A DNA stretch of 61,649 nucleotides from contig JACNLO010000075.1 in the NCBI GenBank assembly GCA_014381555.1, forward strand, positions 1 through 61,649, in the 5' to 3' direction. Each line of letters opens with the position of its first letter. Position 1 is the stretch's first letter. Shown one piece after another: positions 1 through 15,837 of the stretch. Under the pieces are notes generated by a model, which searched no databases, was not told where the DNA came from, and saw only the letters and a list, made by a program, of their open reading frames with translations. Position numbers and translations under genes: made by a program. Source of the stretch: Planctomycetota bacterium (lineage in GTDB: Bacteria; Planctomycetota; Phycisphaerae; Phycisphaerales; SM1A02).

Positions 1-69
1 CTGTGGTCACCTCTGTGTCTACCTCTGTGGTCACCTCTGTGTCTACCTCTGTGGTTACCTCTGAGGTAA
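1..69. repeat. 12-bp tandem array, copy 1 (cut by window edge)
   Basis: Units of 12 bp alternate between CTCTGTGGTCAC-like and CTCTGTGTCTAC-like forms. The right end closes with an inverted half unit, making the palindrome TTACCTC-T-GAGGTAA at 55-69. It lies downstream of the PilZ gene (minus strand) and contains no convincing gene. It is the same family, in the same orientation, as the copy at 10588-10686; the copy at 15661-15781 is inverted. The left end is outside the window. Confidence 0.9.
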
Positions 70-10587: not shown

Positions 10588-10686
10588 TTACCTCTGTGTC
10601 GTCCTCTGTGGTTACCTCTGTGGTTACCTCTGTGTCGTCCTCTGTGGTTACCTCTGTGTAACCCTCTGAGGCTACCACAGAGGTAA
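10588..10686. repeat. 12-bp tandem array, copy 2, capped by inverted unit
   Basis: Eight to nine units of 12 bp, mainly CCTCTGTGGTTA with variants CCTCTGTGTCGT and CCTCTGTGTAAC. The last unit is inverted: TTACCTCTGTG (10648-10658) pairs with CACAGAGGTAA (10676-10686), enclosing the small palindrome CCTCTGAGG. It has the same orientation as copy 1 and is opposite to copy 3. It fills the spacer between the small helical gene (reading away) and the secreted protein gene (ending towards it), just before a terminator hairpin. Confidence 0.9.
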
Positions 10687-10699
10687 AAATGGATATAAA

Positions 10700-10730
10700 G
10701 TTCCTCGCGAAGGTCGGCTTCGCGAGGAAC
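10700..10730 (-). terminator. intrinsic terminator of the secreted-protein gene
   Basis: GTTCCTCGCGAAG and CTTCGCGAGGAAC form a perfect 13-bp stem with a 5-nt loop. Read on the minus strand it is followed by TTTATAT, and it lies 31 bp after the stop codon at 10761. Confidence 0.8.
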
Positions 10731-10760
10731 GGGATGTAAGGGAGAGAAAGAGTTAATAAA

Positions 10761-11609
10761 TTATTCTGGGAGTGGAACGGTGTCGCCTATGCCTTTGTAT
10801 ACGCCACGTTGCCAAGGGACTACTCCAGTTACAAAATCGTCATCCTCATCTTCGCAAGGATCGCAGCTTATGAAATCAACATAGAAGAGCCAACTGTCCG
10901 AGTTGCTACCCAAATCCGTTCCATTCCAATACCAGCCCAAAAGCGCTTGCTGCATACACGCAGCGCTAAAGGTAATACTCACGGTTGCTAATTCGCAATC
11001 GTAATCAAAGGCAACTTGGTTAAATGCCCACCCAACAATCGTTGGCGTTCCATCAAAACAAACTGTTGCACTTACTGATTGGCTAATCGGTGCTGGTTCA
11101 TAACCATTAATCCAACCTGACTCAAACACATGAACTTCATCAACAGGGAATGGAGAATCAACGCGTATCGTAACATTACCGTATTCATCAATACATGCAG
11201 TTCCATTTTGTAAAGCATCGATGATATCGCCCAAAGTTACCATGCATCCCTGTGACCAAACACGAAACCCAGTGTTACCAAACTGAGGATATTTACAAAC
11301 AAGTTGATCTGCGACCCAATCCAAATTGTTACATTCAGGACCACCACACACATACCCCAATGACATAGTGCATTGGCTAGGTGGAGGAGTACATGTATCA
11401 CAAGGTGGAATAGTGTCGCCAGGACCTTCATAATGACCACCACCTCCAATTGGCTCTCCATCAATATCACCGCCTGAAGGTGGTGCAATTCCTTGAATAG
11501 TGCTGCCGTGGTGGTTTGTGTGGGTGGCAGAAGCTAATTGAGACGAACAAAATAGCACTACTGCTCCAATGGGAAGAGAAACAATAAGGGTTTTTATAGT
11601 GATATTCAT
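10761..11609 (-). CDS. secreted Cys-rich protein of unknown function
   Basis: A 282-residue exported protein. Residues 1-29 form a signal peptide with likely cleavage after A-S-A. The mature part begins with a Gly/Pro-rich, Cys-containing linker (residues about 40-85) followed by a beta-rich domain with spaced cysteines. The motif G-D-T-I-P near residue 66 is echoed as G-D-T-V-P at the very C-terminus. I recognise no family. AAGGA precedes the ATG by 7 nt. It is transcribed away from the ECF sigma gene (103 bp apart) and lies inside the array-bracketed module, so it could be a target or partner of that sigma/kinase pair. Confidence 0.7.
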   Translation of the reverse strand: MNITIKTLIVSLPIGAVVLFCSSQLASATHTNHHGSTIQGIAPPSGGDIDGEPIGGGGHYEGPGDTIPPCDTCTPPPSQCTMSLGYVCGGPECNNLDWVADQLVCKYPQFGNTGFRVWSQGCMVTLGDIIDALQNGTACIDEYGNVTIRVDSPFPVDEVHVFESGWINGYEPAPISQSVSATVCFDGTPTIVGWAFNQVAFDYDCELATVSITFSAACMQQALLGWYWNGTDLGSNSDSWLFYVDFISCDPCEDEDDDFVTGVVPWQRGVYKGIGDTVPLPE

Positions 11610-11712
11610 TGTTCATTCCTTTCTAAAATATGGTTCGAGGTTACTTAAGGACAGGCGTACACAACCAACAAAACCCGCAACACTAGCCAATCACAAGGTA
11701 TACTCGCCATTT

Positions 11713-12222
11713 ATGACTCCCCAACCACTTAATGAATTGATGCCAGAGGTGTACGATGAACTTCGGCGACTTGCTGAAGCATCTATGAGGCATGAGCGTG
11801 CTGGTCACACTCTGCAAGCAACAGCCCTCGTTAATGAAATATATTTACGGCTAGGGCATCAAGAAGAAGCAAAATGGCAAAGTCGTGCTCATTTTTTCGC
11901 AGCAGCTGCTCAGGCAATTCGACGAATTTTAATCGACCATGCTCGAAAAAAGTATGCTGATAAACGTGGCGGAAACCGAAGCCGAGTTCCACTTGAAAAC
12001 GCTGTTGGGATTTGTGATTCAACCGAGGTCGAAATCCTTGATTTAGATTCTGCTCTACTTGAGTTAGAAGAAATAGATGCACGCGCAGCTAACGTTGTTG
12101 CCCTTCGTTTTTTTGGCGGTCTTAATATGGAAGAAATTTCCACTGTTATTGGCGTTTCTAAACGCACTGTTGAGGGCGATTGGACGACCGCAAAAGCATG
12201 GCTCAGAGGACGACTTGAGTAA
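11713..12222 (+). CDS. ECF-type RNA polymerase sigma factor (planctomycete STK-linked type)
   Basis: A 169-residue sigma-70 family factor. Region 2 includes H-T-L-Q-A-T-A-L-V-N-E-I-Y-L-R-L and R-R-I-L-I-D-H-A-R; region 4 is the helix-turn-helix N-M-E-E-I-S-T-V-I-G-V-S-K-R-T-V near residues 137-152. This matches the group found in planctomycetes next to Ser/Thr kinases rather than anti-sigma factors. The ATG at 11713 is the first that fits the family N-terminus; no Shine-Dalgarno site is seen. The stop overlaps the kinase start as TAATG, so the two proteins are probably made together. Confidence 0.88.
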   Translation: MTPQPLNELMPEVYDELRRLAEASMRHERAGHTLQATALVNEIYLRLGHQEEAKWQSRAHFFAAAAQAIRRILIDHARKKYADKRGGNRSRVPLENAVGICDSTEVEILDLDSALLELEEIDARAANVVALRFFGGLNMEEISTVIGVSKRTVEGDWTTAKAWLRGRLE

Positions 12223-14750
12223 TGAATCCAAATCAGTGGAAGCAAATCCGTGAATTGTTTTCTGCATCAAGAAAGATGACAAAAGAAGAGCAGTCTTCCT
12301 ACATTGAATCTAAAACCTCTGATCCACTTGTACTTAAAGAAGTGCGTACTTTGCTTGATAATGATCATGAAGACACATTTCTTGATAAACCAGCTCTCGG
12401 CGACAACTTTTCACTTTCTGATACTCAAACTCCCGAAAAGGGAATGACTGTTCAAGAACACCTTGTTGATGGATATACCATTTCTAAGATACTCGGAAGT
12501 GGAGCAAGCGGTATTGTGTATGAAGCAACGCAGCACGAACCAAAACGAAAAGTTGCCATTAAGGTTCTTCGTGCGAGCGCCATGGGAACCGATGAACAAA
12601 CACGGTTTCGAAGAGAAGCAGAGACTCTAGCAAAACTCGACCACCCAAATACCGCAACTGTGTTTGCAACAAACACGACGAAGGATGGATCACCCTGGAT
12701 GGCGATGGAATATATCAATGGTGCACGTCTTGACCAGTGGGCAACAAACGCGGGCGAACGTGAAATTGCCTGCGCCATGAAAAAAATTGGAGACGCTGTC
12801 CAACTCGCTCATTCGAACCACATTATTCATCGTGACTTAAAACCAGCCAATATATTAATGACAAAAGAGGGTGAACCAAAAGTTCTGGATTTTGGAGTAG
12901 CACGAGTAACTCGTGGGAAAGATTCCACATTACTCACTCAAACTGGTGCTGTAATTGGCACACAAAAATATATGAGCCCCGAGCAAGCAAGTGGGAGTTC
13001 TAATATTGATGAACGAAGCGATGTGTACGCTCTCGGAGTGATGCTGAAAGAACTACTAGACGCAAAATCACCAGCAGATTTGAGAATAATTGCCAAGAAG
13101 GCATCTGATGAATTTCCGCAACGACGATATAACAACGCAGGAGAATTTAGAGATGACTTGCAAAGGTGGCTTCTAAGTAAGCCAATCAAAGCAAAACGCG
13201 CTTCGCTATATTATTCCGCATCATTATGGGTCAAAAGACATAAAATTATTACTTCGCTCCTTTGTGTAATTGTCATTGCGGTTTGTTTCTCGATTAATCA
13301 GTTACAAACAAGAAATTGGATGCAATATGCATCTCTCATTCAGCAAGCACAGGTCGCGTATGAAGGTGGGAATCTAAGTCAAATGTCTACTTCACTTGAA
13401 GAATGTGATGAAACTTTTCGGAACTGGGAATGGAAGTGGCTACAACAACTCGCCACAAAGGGAGAACTTCCCGTCAAAACGTTGAGTGTTGGATCTGACG
13501 AACAGGGAAAACTTATTGCTGTGCTCCCAAATGGTGATGTCCTTGATTTAAGCAGCGGTCAAATTGTGTACAAAATTTCGCCAGAACCACATCTTGCGTT
13601 AATGTCCAAAGATTGTTCGACCGTAATAGCACAACAAAAAAACGGCGACTTATATGTTCATTCGATTAAAAACCCCGAACACCCCAGCACTAAACCCAGA
13701 AAAATTGATGCTGACACCTCAATCCCGAATATTTCCGCAATGGCAATTTCTGATAATGGGAACCACTTTGTAATTGCGCTTACTCCAACTCTTGACCCTA
13801 TGGACCTTAGCACAATAGATGCAAAAACTAGAATCTTAGGGTTCAACCTTGTGGAGGATAACGTTTACTTGGATGACCAATTGCACAATAGAATTTTGGA
13901 TACAAATTCGGCAATCGATGTTGCTGAAGACGGAACTACGATTGCATCATCTATTTTTGGAAACGTAATTGTATGGAGGTTCAATGAGATTACTGATCGC
14001 CGAGATTTTAAAGTGTCAAGCACTCCTTCCACCATTGCAATTCATCCAAATGGAAAAATGATTGCGGTTGCAAGTCTTGGCTCAAGTACTTCAAATATAA
14101 AAATATTGAAAATTCAAACCATGCTTCCCATAAAAGACTCACCAATTATTGTGCACGACCGTGGAATAATTTCAGTTGACCTATCGCATGATGGAACTTT
14201 GTTGGCTTCTATTGATAGTAACGGAATTATGAAAATAACTCCACTCGACGGGAGACCACCAATCGTTGAACTAATAATGGGAAAAGAGCAAATGGCAACC
14301 GTTTCATTTTCAACTGATGCAGACAAGGTTTTCATTCGGCAAAGCGACGGCTCTACTAGTTCTCGCTCAACAAATAGCAGAATTTATGAACGCAAAATAT
14401 GGAGTGGCATTAAATCTGCAACAATAAACAACACTTCACTTTATGTGGACATAGGCACGGGATACTACAAATACACCTTCGAAAGTGGAGATATAACAGA
14501 GGTTGATGTTATGCCTGATACGACCAACTCCTCGAACACTACACCCGATGGCAAACGCATTGCAACGATTGTTAAAGGCGGTTCAATTCAAATCTTCGAT
14601 AACAAGAACAACACGCCATTGCTAACAATCGATTGGCCGCAAACACAAATCGCTGCAACTGGATTCATCAACGATGGGCATACTCTCTGTGCAGTTTCAA
14701 TTGATGGAAAAATTAGAACCTGGAATATCCAACAAAAAACTAATCAGTAA
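12222..14750 (+). CDS. transmembrane Ser/Thr protein kinase with C-terminal beta-propeller
   Basis: An 842-residue Hanks-type kinase. After about 85 N-terminal residues comes the kinase domain: Gly loop G92-S-G94-A-S-G, Lys114 in V-A-I-K-V-L, catalytic H203-R-D205-L-K-P-A-N and D223-F-G. All key residues are present, so it should be active. A single membrane segment near residues 340-357 is followed by about 480 residues of repeating beta strands like a WD40 or related propeller, predicted outside the cytoplasm. Known logic of such pairs: the kinase controls the coupled ECF sigma factor, here presumably in response to something bound by the propeller. It overlaps the convergent secreted-protein gene by 7 bp. 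Confidence 0.88.
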   Translation: MNPNQWKQIRELFSASRKMTKEEQSSYIESKTSDPLVLKEVRTLLDNDHEDTFLDKPALGDNFSLSDTQTPEKGMTVQEHLVDGYTISKILGSGASGIVYEATQHEPKRKVAIKVLRASAMGTDEQTRFRREAETLAKLDHPNTATVFATNTTKDGSPWMAMEYINGARLDQWATNAGEREIACAMKKIGDAVQLAHSNHIIHRDLKPANILMTKEGEPKVLDFGVARVTRGKDSTLLTQTGAVIGTQKYMSPEQASGSSNIDERSDVYALGVMLKELLDAKSPADLRIIAKKASDEFPQRRYNNAGEFRDDLQRWLLSKPIKAKRASLYYSASLWVKRHKIITSLLCVIVIAVCFSINQLQTRNWMQYASLIQQAQVAYEGGNLSQMSTSLEECDETFRNWEWKWLQQLATKGELPVKTLSVGSDEQGKLIAVLPNGDVLDLSSGQIVYKISPEPHLALMSKDCSTVIAQQKNGDLYVHSIKNPEHPSTKPRKIDADTSIPNISAMAISDNGNHFVIALTPTLDPMDLSTIDAKTRILGFNLVEDNVYLDDQLHNRILDTNSAIDVAEDGTTIASSIFGNVIVWRFNEITDRRDFKVSSTPSTIAIHPNGKMIAVASLGSSTSNIKILKIQTMLPIKDSPIIVHDRGIISVDLSHDGTLLASIDSNGIMKITPLDGRPPIVELIMGKEQMATVSFSTDADKVFIRQSDGSTSSRSTNSRIYERKIWSGIKSATINNTSLYVDIGTGYYKYTFESGDITEVDVMPDTTNSSNTTPDGKRIATIVKGGSIQIFDNKNNTPLLTIDWPQTQIAATGFINDGHTLCAVSIDGKIRTWNIQQKTNQ

Positions 14751-15562
14751 ATTGGAAATGGTGGCGCATTATGGAAGTGTCCATTCTGCATTTGAATGAG
14801 ATATTCGATCCGCACTAATGGCATCGTTTGTGGAACTGAGAGGCCTGGTGGTGGTGTTGGTATTGATGGAGATGCGCCAAAACGCCAGCATCCATCTTCG
14901 CCAAGCCTATAGAGCAAGACTGTAATCAGTCCTTCCTCAGTAATAATAATAATCAACACTTCGCGTTCGTTCAGCGGAATCGTATACCGCTCTCCATTTG
15001 GCCCAGGGTTTGGAGGCGCACATTCTGAGCCACTGTCACCACGGTCCTCGCCCTCTAAGTATGAAAAACTCACCATCCAGCCACCCCAATTCCATCCATC
15101 CTTGGCAGTTGACATCGGCGGACGTTCAAGAATCACAACTCCGTCTGGAATCGGTTGAGCAGTAACCCCTTTACGATTTGTAGTTAATGGATATTTTGAC
15201 CCGTAATTAACAGCTCGAATATCAATAACTAGCCTTGAACCGATTGTAAAGAAGTTGCATTCGTAATATGGCTCTCCAAGTGCATCTGGAATAATGGGAA
15301 TCAATTCTATTGAGTTATCATCCTCAATAATCCACATCCACGTCACATAAGAATCTCCATTTTCTAGGGTGTGAATAGTCCCCTCAACATTAATCTCAAT
15401 AAAAACATTGTCCTCAACTTCTTCATACAACGTAAAGTAGAAAAAATCATCCGAATTCAACGACCGCCCTTCATCAATTTGACCACTACGTTGCATTGCG
15501 GATCCAATATCTGAATAGATAACGCTGGAGAGGAGAATCAGGATGAATCGTATGTATATCAT
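14744..15562 (-). CDS. secreted protein of unknown function
   Basis: About 272 residues. The N-terminus M-I-Y-I-R-F-I-L-I-L-L-S-S is a signal peptide with possible cleavage near S-A-M. The rest is beta-rich and acidic, with a Pro/Gly loop near residue 190; no known domain. I chose ATG 15562; the frame is open to a TTG at 15586. Its 3' end overlaps the kinase gene by 7 bp, tail to tail. Like the protein at 10761 it is exported, about 280 residues long and sits inside the two inverted arrays, but the two proteins show no obvious similarity. Confidence 0.6.
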   Translation of the reverse strand: MIYIRFILILLSSVIYSDIGSAMQRSGQIDEGRSLNSDDFFYFTLYEEVEDNVFIEINVEGTIHTLENGDSYVTWMWIIEDDNSIELIPIIPDALGEPYYECNFFTIGSRLVIDIRAVNYGSKYPLTTNRKGVTAQPIPDGVVILERPPMSTAKDGWNWGGWMVSFSYLEGEDRGDSGSECAPPNPGPNGERYTIPLNEREVLIIIITEEGLITVLLYRLGEDGCWRFGASPSIPTPPPGLSVPQTMPLVRIEYLIQMQNGHFHNAPPFPIY

Positions 15563-15660
15563 TATTTTGTATGAAGTTACTATCAATTAAGTATAAGTCG
15601 TATATCTTTAAAAGCGAGAATTGATACGTAAACCCGTAACATTTTTTGCTTCTTCTGAGA

Positions 15661-15781
15661 TTACCTCAGAGGTAGACACAGAGGTTACCTCAGAGGTAGA
15701 CACAGAGGTAGACACAGAGGTAGACACAGAGGTAGACACAGAGGTTACCTCAGAGGTAGACACAGAGGAAGACACAGAGGT
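15661..15781. repeat. 12-bp tandem array, copy 3 (inverted relative to copies 1 and 2)
   Basis: Ten units of 12 bp: GACACAGAGGTA repeated, interrupted three times (15661, 15685, 15745) by TTACCTCAGAGGTA, which is nearly palindromic. It reads as the reverse complement of copies 1 and 2. Because the unit is a multiple of three and has no stop, frames stay open on both strands (for example V-D-T-E repeats on plus), but no start context supports a protein. Confidence 0.9.
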
Positions 15782-15837
15782 CGTGCGAGGTATTATCGGA
15801 CGTTGCTTTGATTTGAGAATGAATGGTGGTTGGAGGG

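Follow-up and report, generated by a model that had tools for sequence, protein, structure and literature searches.

In the window, the 61,649-nucleotide stretch of planctomycete DNA analysed here, exactly four genes lie between two arrays of one 12-bp repeat family that read in opposite directions. The genes encode an exported protein, an ECF sigma factor, a Hanks-type Ser/Thr kinase and a second exported protein (Table 1). This organization, described in an earlier sequence-only reading of the region, was confirmed from the positions of the repeat units and the coordinates of the genes, and the overlaps proposed in the same reading, the TAATG shared by the sigma factor and kinase genes and the tail-to-tail overlap of the kinase gene with that of exported protein 2 (7 bp), are both present. 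The locus was compared among 13 congeners, including G000 (the genome holding the window), G003, G004, G008, G009, G011 and G012.

Table 1. Coordinates of the four genes, the repeat arrays and associated features in the window.
Feature	Position	Strand	Details
Third array, same 12-bp family	1..67	+	At contig start, outside the four-gene block
Array 1, 12-bp family	10588..10691	+	7 units CCTCTGTG/CCTCTGAG and one inverted terminal unit
Intrinsic-terminator-like hairpin of exported gene 1	10700..10730	-	13 pairs; RNA fold z -7.7
Exported protein 1	10761..11609	-	282 aa; export judged by eye from N-terminus
Promoter-like motif TTGCGGGTTT-N13-CGCCTG	11652..11680	-	~43 nt before ATG of exported gene 1
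ECF sigma factor	11713..12222	+	169 aa from chosen start ATG 11713; PF07638, TIGR02999
Hanks-type Ser/Thr kinase	12222..14750	+	842 aa; kinase domain 85-286
Exported protein 2	14744..15562	-	272 aa from ATG; ORF opens at TTG 15586; export judged by eye
Promoter-like motif TTACGGGTTT-N13-CGCTTT	15611..15639	-	~49 nt before ATG of exported gene 2
Array 2, 12-bp family	15660..15785	-	10 units, none inverted

Array 1, with eight exact CCTCTGNG units at 10591-10683, immediately adjoins the distal side of the exported gene 1 terminator-like hairpin, of which counterparts were recognized by eye in G008 and G011, and array 2, whose units at 15665-15780 all read on the minus strand, sits upstream of the conserved rpsD promoter region. 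Both are detected by TRF (array 1 at 10588-10676 and array 2 at 15667-15781, the scores of the arrays in the window ranging from 86 to 167), and their DNA folds reach z-scores of -6.5 (+) and -5.0 (-) for array 1 and -4.0 on both strands for array 2.

Neither exported protein has a match in Pfam or NCBIfam. Exported protein 1 is 58% and 57% identical to its copies in G008 and G011, respectively, and its structure model, with a mean pLDDT of 40, was set aside. In the sigma factor, a QATA motif containing Thr37 occupies the site of the canonical ECF DAED and is retained in all three copies (G000, G008 and G011). The kinase contains a hydrophobic segment near residues 342-358, located by eye, and a C-terminal beta-propeller-like region at about 420-836, the only part for which its structure model was of use, with most of the kinase domain showing pLDDT values below 50. 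A Foldseek search with this model returned mostly WD40-type proteins as top matches, with TM-scores among the best 50 of 0.12-0.26 when normalized by query length and no higher than 0.52 by target length, thus supporting the propeller fold class but not its exact shape.

The promoter-like motif, with a spacing of 13, precedes both exported genes in G000, G008 and G011; it was built from the same six sites that it matches, the three sites of exported gene 1 being homologous DNA. With up to two mismatches allowed, the window contains only the two sites of the exported genes, and two or more such matches were found in 17 of 100 shuffled windows. Exact copies outside the cassette were absent from 191 partly overlapping loci comprising 1.52 Mb. 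General consensus scans gave numbers close to those of shuffled sequences (promoters 13 vs 12.9, terminators 7 vs 5.6).

The cassette in the genus and its proposed signalling pathway

The four genes are found in the same order and orientation and with the same overlaps in three of the 13 congeners (G000, G008 and G011), always beside rpsD. Genome-wide searches covered the kinase and exported protein 2. A full-length kinase match was obtained in three of the 61 genomes searched, which are the same three congeners, with none of the other kinase matches listed extending past query residue 371, and exported protein 2 is present in the same three of the 13 congeners, it and the full-length kinase both being absent from the other ten. 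The proposal of a self-contained signalling cassette is supported by the gene order, the joint absence of full-length kinase and exported protein 2 and the common promoter-like motif. As to the question whether the block moves or is missing as a unit, the full-length kinase and exported protein 2 are missing together, and no movement was seen, since the cassette occupies the same place in the same orientation in all three genomes.

Our preferred model of the cassette is as follows: the putative membrane kinase would sense an external signal through its beta-propeller-like region and phosphorylate the sigma factor, most likely at Thr37, located at the position of the acidic DAED of canonical ECFs. 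Once activated, the sigma factor would transcribe the two exported genes from their common motif. In this manner, the cassette probably induces the two secreted proteins that it encodes. The model finds a parallel in the ECF43 systems EcfP/PknT and EcfK/PknS, in which an ECF gene stands next to that of a Hanks-type kinase and a Thr motif replaces DAED (PMC8999054, PMC13147305). Here, the two genes are adjacent and overlapping in G000, G008 and G011, the DAED of region 2.2 is replaced in all three copies by QATA with a Thr at the putative phosphosite, equated with STTA/QTTA by eye from the motif (PMC8999054, PMC13147305), and, as in those systems, the locus contains no anti-sigma match. Unlike the ECF43 systems described there, the cassette comprises a sigma factor classified by the profiles PF07638 and TIGR02999 only, a kinase with a propeller-like region and, next to them, a pair of exported genes with a common promoter-like motif. 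Planctomycete kinase-linked groups listed in the same source also include ECF59, 61, 62 and 217, and groups other than ECF43 may retain DAED (PMC8999054). In its putative topology, the kinase also resembles WD40-bearing membrane Ser/Thr kinases of Planctomycetota, with the kinase domain inside and a C-terminal WD40-type region predicted outside (PMC11032199); it differs from them in sharing one conserved locus with a sigma factor gene and the two genes of exported proteins.

Arrays of the 12-bp family in the genome

The 12-bp family forms 14 arrays in G000, three in the window and 11 on eleven other contigs. The three-unit pattern has 109 matches (54+55) in the whole genome, compared with none for a reversed control, and the census is complete for the patterns used, the examined stretches holding all 54+55 three-unit and 71+71 two-unit matches. 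The arrays keep a strict register: of 133 pairs of neighbouring units, 126 share one orientation and are offset by 12 bp. They contain up to 36 units at one site and show higher-order periods of 24 and 36 bp, and four contigs (C55, C63, C76 and C83) have a terminus within an array. The 4-bp spacers between units are drawn from 13 sequences; among 126 spacers, 34 read TCTA, which places on the other strand a GTAG that may correspond to the 5' guide tetranucleotide (such as GT[AG]G) at the foot of REP hairpins. An assignment as CRISPR was rejected on account of this small set of spacers.

The arrays are dispersed and mainly extragenic, three of the 14 residing inside conserved ORFs and 11 elsewhere. 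Their sites include gene interiors and convergent and divergent gaps alike, and rpsD, an aminoacyl-tRNA-synthetase-like gene (PF00152) and, judging from its own sequence, what we take to be a transaldolase-like gene are located downstream of arrays. All three intragenic arrays are in frame and encode repeats of the Thr-Ser-Glu-Val (TSEV) type, and the one in nadA is absent from eight aligned congener sequences. As single-stranded DNA, the arrays form hairpins: all eight folds of six arrays (four from G000 and two from G003) were better than every one of 200 shuffles, with z-scores between -4.0 and -11.6. At the level of RNA, four array folds have z-scores of -2.5 to -5.3, three of which beat every shuffle.

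The family is also present in G003, whose arrays contain inverted units and long near-perfect palindromes, and in G012, and two array sites are common to G000 and G003. In eight of the 13 congeners there is no two-unit match anywhere. A reading of the arrays as a widespread bacterial repeat was also rejected; a search of the genome collection for the three-unit pattern returned 54 stretches, surveyed by title, three of which belong to contigs of G003 and G011, and there were three viral matches. Among the entries listed in the literature searches, none was a paper on the family, which is no proof that it is unpublished.

Relation of the arrays to the cassette and their origin

We favour, as the likelier interpretation, that two independent things adjoin at this locus, a four-gene sigma factor/kinase cassette and a dispersed family of REP-like hairpin repeats. 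The sequence-only reading had envisaged the arrays as recombination borders or insulators, and had named two observations that would speak against it, relatives keeping the four genes without arrays and arrays without link to the block. Both were made: G008 keeps the four genes and no arrays, and the family occurs at 12 other places in the genome; with G003 showing arrays at the rpsD site and no cassette, the idea is left unsupported. At the left edge in G008, a stretch bears, as judged by eye, some resemblance to one of the RAYT repeats of that genome.

The placement of arrays at both edges in opposite orientation would suit the ends of a mobile or invertible unit carrying the four genes, as would the variable purF-rpsD interval, which contains other genes in G004 and G008, and the patchy presence of the cassette on the tree, and in G011 an unrelated 13-bp repeat is found at both edges, the one fact favouring a role as borders. 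Such a unit is nevertheless very unlikely, given the cassette without arrays and the arrays without cassette, boundary repeats that are not constant between genomes, neither movement nor inversion in the three genomes, no recombinase or transposase family among the profile matches of the four genes, and simulations placing 14 arrays in the genome, in which a pair within 5.1 kb arose by chance in 37% of cases; the arrays as cassette borders are already largely refuted. The cassette is probably old in the genus and was lost from most species. Its separate entry into three species by recombination through the conserved purF/rpsD flanks appears doubtful, even if each of G000, G008 and G011 has a near relative without the cassette and about three gains would suffice instead of about six losses, as site and orientation are identical in all three and G000 and G008 form the closest pair for kinase and exported protein 2, as on the core tree. 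Moreover, G009 retains, upstream of rpsD at a contig end, a 13-residue remnant of exported protein 1 (E 5.9e-6 and 2.8e-5, compared with 0.018 for the best among 20 shuffled sets), the only one among nine genomes without the cassette to be clear of shuffles, which points to loss.

With respect to the arrays themselves, palindromic ends such as TTACCTCTGAGGTAA, the positions upstream of rpsD, the PF00152 gene and the transaldolase-like gene and the RNA folds described above would be compatible with functional sites that bind regulators or insulate the transcription of neighbours. The occupation of gene interiors and of convergent and divergent gaps, the eight congeners devoid of two-unit matches, the sequence just before rpsD, which is conserved without arrays, and the location of array 2 outside the motif of exported gene 2 render this quite improbable. 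Plain minisatellites, generated by slippage at scattered seed sequences without a transposase, would account for the strict register, the higher-order periods and the two sites common to G000 and G003, and none of the genomes G000, G003 and G012 yielded a cognate RAYT. We still hold this origin to be unlikely: the recurrence of one unit at fourteen scattered sites calls for a means of spreading, the inverted units and long palindromes in G003 are not products of slippage, and in G011 a RAYT gene has units of the family next to it.

In our reading, the arrays are instead REP-like elements whose tandem unit is unusually short and which probably owe their dispersal to a REP-associated tyrosine transposase (RAYT) that acts on single-stranded DNA. 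They would come to rest at sites where they cause little damage, namely downstream of terminators, in the gaps between genes and, given that the unit equals four codons, within variable loops in frame. In G011, a PF01797 gene has degenerate units of the 12-bp family starting at a distance of 141 bp and exact ones at 557 bp; its product reaches 66 bits, below the cut-off of 80 set for NCBIfam REP_Tyr_transpos. Short repeats adjoin all ten PF01797 genes of the genus, a count taken at these loci; the 12-bp repeat itself is located beside one of three RAYT genes in G011, on one side only, and beside neither of the two in G000, each of which resides among other repeats. Searches for PF01797 in G003 and G012, both of which contain the family, gave no match at E<=0.01, and a candidate driver of the arrays is seen only in G011.

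The dispersed short palindromes, mostly intergenic, and the several repeat families of the genus, each RAYT gene with its own repeat, resemble REPtrons formed by REP/BIME and RAYT (TnpA-REP), and in-frame copies inside genes are reported for other REP-type families (PMC2817692, PMC6006769, PMC3733652). Unlike REPs, with their units of 20-40 bp, and the REPtrons described there, the arrays have a 12-bp unit in strict head-to-tail register, up to the 36 copies mentioned above, and no cognate RAYT was found in the genome of the window. Rickettsia palindromic elements are longer palindromes and are not known as 12-bp tandem arrays. Like the family described here, they are palindromes inserted within protein genes (PMC3733652). 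The tandem repeats of Borgs occur both between and within genes, with intragenic units divisible by three, but are perfect and arise independently (PMC9879509), unlike the single imperfect hairpin-forming family at 14 sites found here. It is conceivable, though no better than tentative, that the arrays represent RAYT substrates of a new class, with a minimal unit of four codons dispersed and tandemly lengthened by a single-strand-acting transposase. Such a unit could be inserted into genes without damage, since its length agrees with the reading frame (Thr-Ser-Glu-Val). Its families would turn over between sister species and come to occupy the same intergenic sites time and again, the two cassette edges in G000 and G011 being an example.

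Biological significance

Two signals that resembled one, cassette and repeats, are now separated. The arrays provide a natural series within one genus, ranging from none to few to many and to different motifs, in which one may ask about the origin, dispersal and tandem growth of RAYT-linked repeats, and about their insertion into genes such as nadA with the reading frame left intact. They are also a warning for annotation, as they insert peptides into proteins and break assemblies. The cassette, in turn, offers a compact kinase-to-sigma pathway that lends itself to testing, as its phosphosite, promoter and outputs are predicted; the planctomycete group in which it occurs is represented here by metagenome assemblies.

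Distribution of the four-gene cassette

Two arrays of the 12-bp family in opposite orientation, the four genes between them and both gene overlaps were all confirmed on the window sequence. These genes, encoding exported protein 1, an ECF sigma factor, a kinase and exported protein 2, had been read as a signalling cassette, which is borne out by their conservation beside rpsD in the congeners G008 and G011, where order and orientation are as in the window's own genome (G000) and both the sigma-kinase overlap and the tail-to-tail overlap of the kinase and exported protein 2 genes are kept. With locus, order and orientation the same in all three genomes, no movement of the block is seen among them. 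Full-length kinase relatives were found in these three of 61 genomes (G008, 48%; G011, 44%), with none of the other kinase matches listed extending past query residue 371, and exported protein 2 is present in the same three of the 13 congeners.

The interval between purF and rpsD is a variable region of the genus. Without the cassette, purF adjoins rpsD in G001, G002, G003, G005 and G010, as does the end of purF in G007, and the interval of G004 holds three genes reading as RND efflux. RND-efflux-like genes were observed in this interval in both G004 and G008. The contigs of G006 and G009 end near rpsD, for which no match was found in G012. In a core tree of four proteins from 12 genomes, with purF missing for two and one protein partial in G004, G000 groups with G003 (support 96), G008 with G004 (100) and G011 with G005 (70), the latter two together with G002 (100). 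This placement of G000, G008 and G011 makes the presence of the cassette patchy, explicable by a single gain with some six losses or by some three gains. Upstream of rpsD in G009, 13 residues match the end of exported protein 1, 12 of them identical to G008 (E 2.8e-5; 5.9e-6 with the G011 and 0.012 with the G000 query, the best of 20 shuffled sets reaching 0.018). This remnant is likely a deletion scar pointing to cassette loss, which falls short of proof because the match lies at a contig end and YxGPGDxVP also occurs earlier in exported protein 1. A YxGxGDxVP-like motif is found twice in this protein, near residue 60 and at the C-terminus, in all three genomes.

Features of the cassette locus, the 12-bp arrays and the RAYT genes
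Feature	Location	Remark
Exported protein 1	window 10761-11609
Exported protein 1 remnant, last 13 residues	G009:C26 (L049), in the 255 bp ahead of rpsD	no cassette behind
RND-efflux-like genes, G004	L045:8564-14310	purF-rpsD interval
RND-efflux-like genes, G008	L046:1-3723	purF-rpsD interval
Third array of the 12-bp family	window 1-67	opens window
Shared G000/G003 array site 1		upstream of rpsD
Shared G000/G003 array site 2		convergent gap between dockerin-bearing and TIM-barrel genes
Array in nadA (PF02445)	G000:C10, L025:1454-1509	in frame, TSEV-type repeats
Array in amidotransferase-like gene	G000:C81, L033:4939-5007	in frame, TSEV-type repeats
Array in A24 prepilin-peptidase-type gene (PF06750)	G000:C69, L031:5032-5088	in frame, C-terminal end, TSEV-type repeats
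Ten Y1/RAYT-type transposase genes	L162-L171 (G000, G007, G008, G011)	each beside a different short palindromic/tandem repeat
60-bp higher-order repeat with 12-bp-family units	G011:C103, L044:4563-4952	just upstream of RAYT gene

Proposed role of the arrays as cassette borders

In the G000 assembly (1.99 Mb in 91 contigs, the window being C63), 14 sites carry arrays of three or more units; the window has three of them, and the other 11 lie on eleven other contigs. The stretches analysed account for all matches in the genome, 54 + 55 with three units and 71 + 71 with two, so this census is complete for these patterns; a reversed control pattern gave 0 matches in G000. Contig C55 ends, and C63, C76 and C83 start, inside similar arrays, which interrupt the assembly and could conceal genes. 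Exact three-unit matches among the 13 congeners are confined to G000 (109), G003 (13) and G011 (5), and among 48 more distant relatives to G036 (2). A looser two-unit pattern was detected in G000 (142), G003 (42), G011 (20), G012 (5) and G002 (1) and in none of the other eight, its control matching once, in G009. Two array sites are common to G000 and G003, and one to G003 and G012.

The sequence-only reading had suggested that the arrays could be recombination borders. Such a role, as ends of a mobile or invertible unit carrying the cassette, is not supported by these data. At rpsD, a pair of short arrays, each mostly in forward orientation, occurs in G003 in the absence of the cassette, and repeats are also seen by eye in the rpsD gap of G005, which equally lacks it. 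When 14 points are scattered at random over 1.99 Mb, 37% of 20,000 simulated runs contain two or more points no further than 5.1 kb apart, so that no special cause is needed for two arrays, the first with a single inverted unit at its end, around a short block. The best remaining fact for such borders comes from G011, where a 13-bp repeat is found at both cassette edges, in the same places as the two arrays in G000. We read this as site tolerance: across the 217 kb of G011 inspected, partly picked for arrays and RAYT genes and thus biased upward in its repeat count, this repeat forms five clusters, two of them the cassette edges, besides many rows of other repeats, and the 61.6 kb window has 11 gaps of at least 100 bp between greedily chosen ORFs. 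The many repeats and few long intergenic gaps make common landing sites plausible.

REP-like repeats, RAYT genes and arrays inside genes

Since a PF01797 gene was found beside a 12-bp-family array in G011, we searched the genus for this family of REP-associated tyrosine transposases (RAYT) and identified ten genes in four of 13 genomes (G000 and G007, two each; G008 and G011, three each). Short repeats of varying sequence adjoin all ten, with copies on both sides in five; TRF reports a tandem array in eight loci, the repeats of L165 and L167 being recognized by eye only. Its output for sampled stretches of G001, G002, G004-G006, G008, G009 and G012, 24-136 kb per genome, ranges from no row to two rows per genome. 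In G011, the RAYT gene on C103 is preceded, on one side only, by 12-bp-family units that are degenerate from 141 bp and exact from 557 bp, and that on C110 is adjoined by the 13-bp repeat GACCTGACCC.

The 12-bp arrays contain 85 copies of the unit CCTCTGTG, 59 of the nearly self-complementary CCTCTGAG and three of CCTCTGCG, with 4-bp spacers drawn from 13 sequences. We folded six arrays, two from G003 and four of G000's 14, with the cassette-flanking pair folded on both strands. Each of the eight DNA folds is more stable than all 200 of its shuffles (z from -4.0 to -11.6), with hairpins of 21 and 16 pairs in G003. RNA folds of the flanking pair show z values of -2.5 to -5.3, one strand being equalled by 4 of 200 shuffles.

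Three of the 14 arrays in G000 lie in frame within conserved ORFs, all in the TSEV-type frame. NadA carries the array region as an insertion within a variable loop ahead of the conserved GCGCATMSRN stretch, as seen in an alignment of G000 with eight congener sequences (two without N-terminal part; four more fragments, from G001, G005 twice and G010, stand outside it), where this loop is shorter in all eight and, among them, longest in G011. No nadA match was found in G004, G008 and G012. The stretch in the amidotransferase-like gene, whose glutamine-amidotransferase match is weak (PF13537, 21.5 bits against a cut-off of 25), is also longer than in relatives, but its variable surroundings weaken the claim of an insert. 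The remaining 11 arrays are outside conserved coding parts, although one overlaps the final codons of a chorismate-binding gene. Another lies within an ORF that opens before the probable start codon of a gene read from its sequence as transaldolase-like, a stretch taken as untranslated. Some arrays are also crossed by short ORFs.

We regard the arrays as REP-like since the presence of an own repeat at each RAYT gene and of copies inside genes matches published descriptions, which pair each TnpA-REP with its own repeat (PMC6006769) and place REPs within genes (PMC3733652, PMC6006769). Against this reading counts the score of the G011 RAYT for NCBIfam REP_Tyr_transpos (66 bits, cut-off 80). We do not file the arrays as REPs, because their unit is too short and the PF01797 search found no cognate RAYT in G000, G003 and G012. 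Slippage can account for much of the tandem growth, and no movement of the arrays was observed.

Sigma factor, kinase and probable control of the exported proteins

The sigma factor matches PF07638 and TIGR02999 and is the most conserved of the four cassette proteins (79-86% identity among the three genomes). In all three it carries QATA in place of the canonical ECF DAED. For EcfP and EcfK of ECF43, threonine phosphorylation in STTA/QTTA is described as supplying the missing acidic residues (PMC8999054, PMC13147305). Other kinase-linked ECF groups may keep DAED (PMC8999054). The kinase combines a Hanks-type domain (85-286, with HRDLKPAN and DFG) with a hydrophobic segment and, in the model, a repeated-strand region with WD40-type matches and ten-residue-block mean pLDDT mostly of 65-87; kinases with outside WD40 regions are described across the phylum (PMC11032199). 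Pfam and NCBIfam searches of the cassette genes gave no match to an anti-sigma family.

In G000, G008 and G011, both exported genes are preceded by a motif, TTRCGGKYTT-N13-CGCYTK, roughly 22-50 nt from their start codons. A dyad search found seven dyads in at least four of nine regions and none in 50 shuffled sets, although the exported protein 1 regions are mutually homologous and, with the sigma regions, form two strands of one gap, where the palindromic top dyad counts double. With as many as two mismatches allowed, the window contains two sites, both those of the exported genes (0.83 expected; two or more in 17 of 100 shuffled windows), and the examined 170 kb of G000 one more, with two mismatches. 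The window scan found no such motif ahead of the sigma gene in its own direction. Control of the two exported proteins seems to lie with the conserved kinase-sigma cassette itself, and the REP-like repeats, in an unusual tandem variant, happen to flank it: cassette and repeats are ordinary parts in an instructive arrangement.
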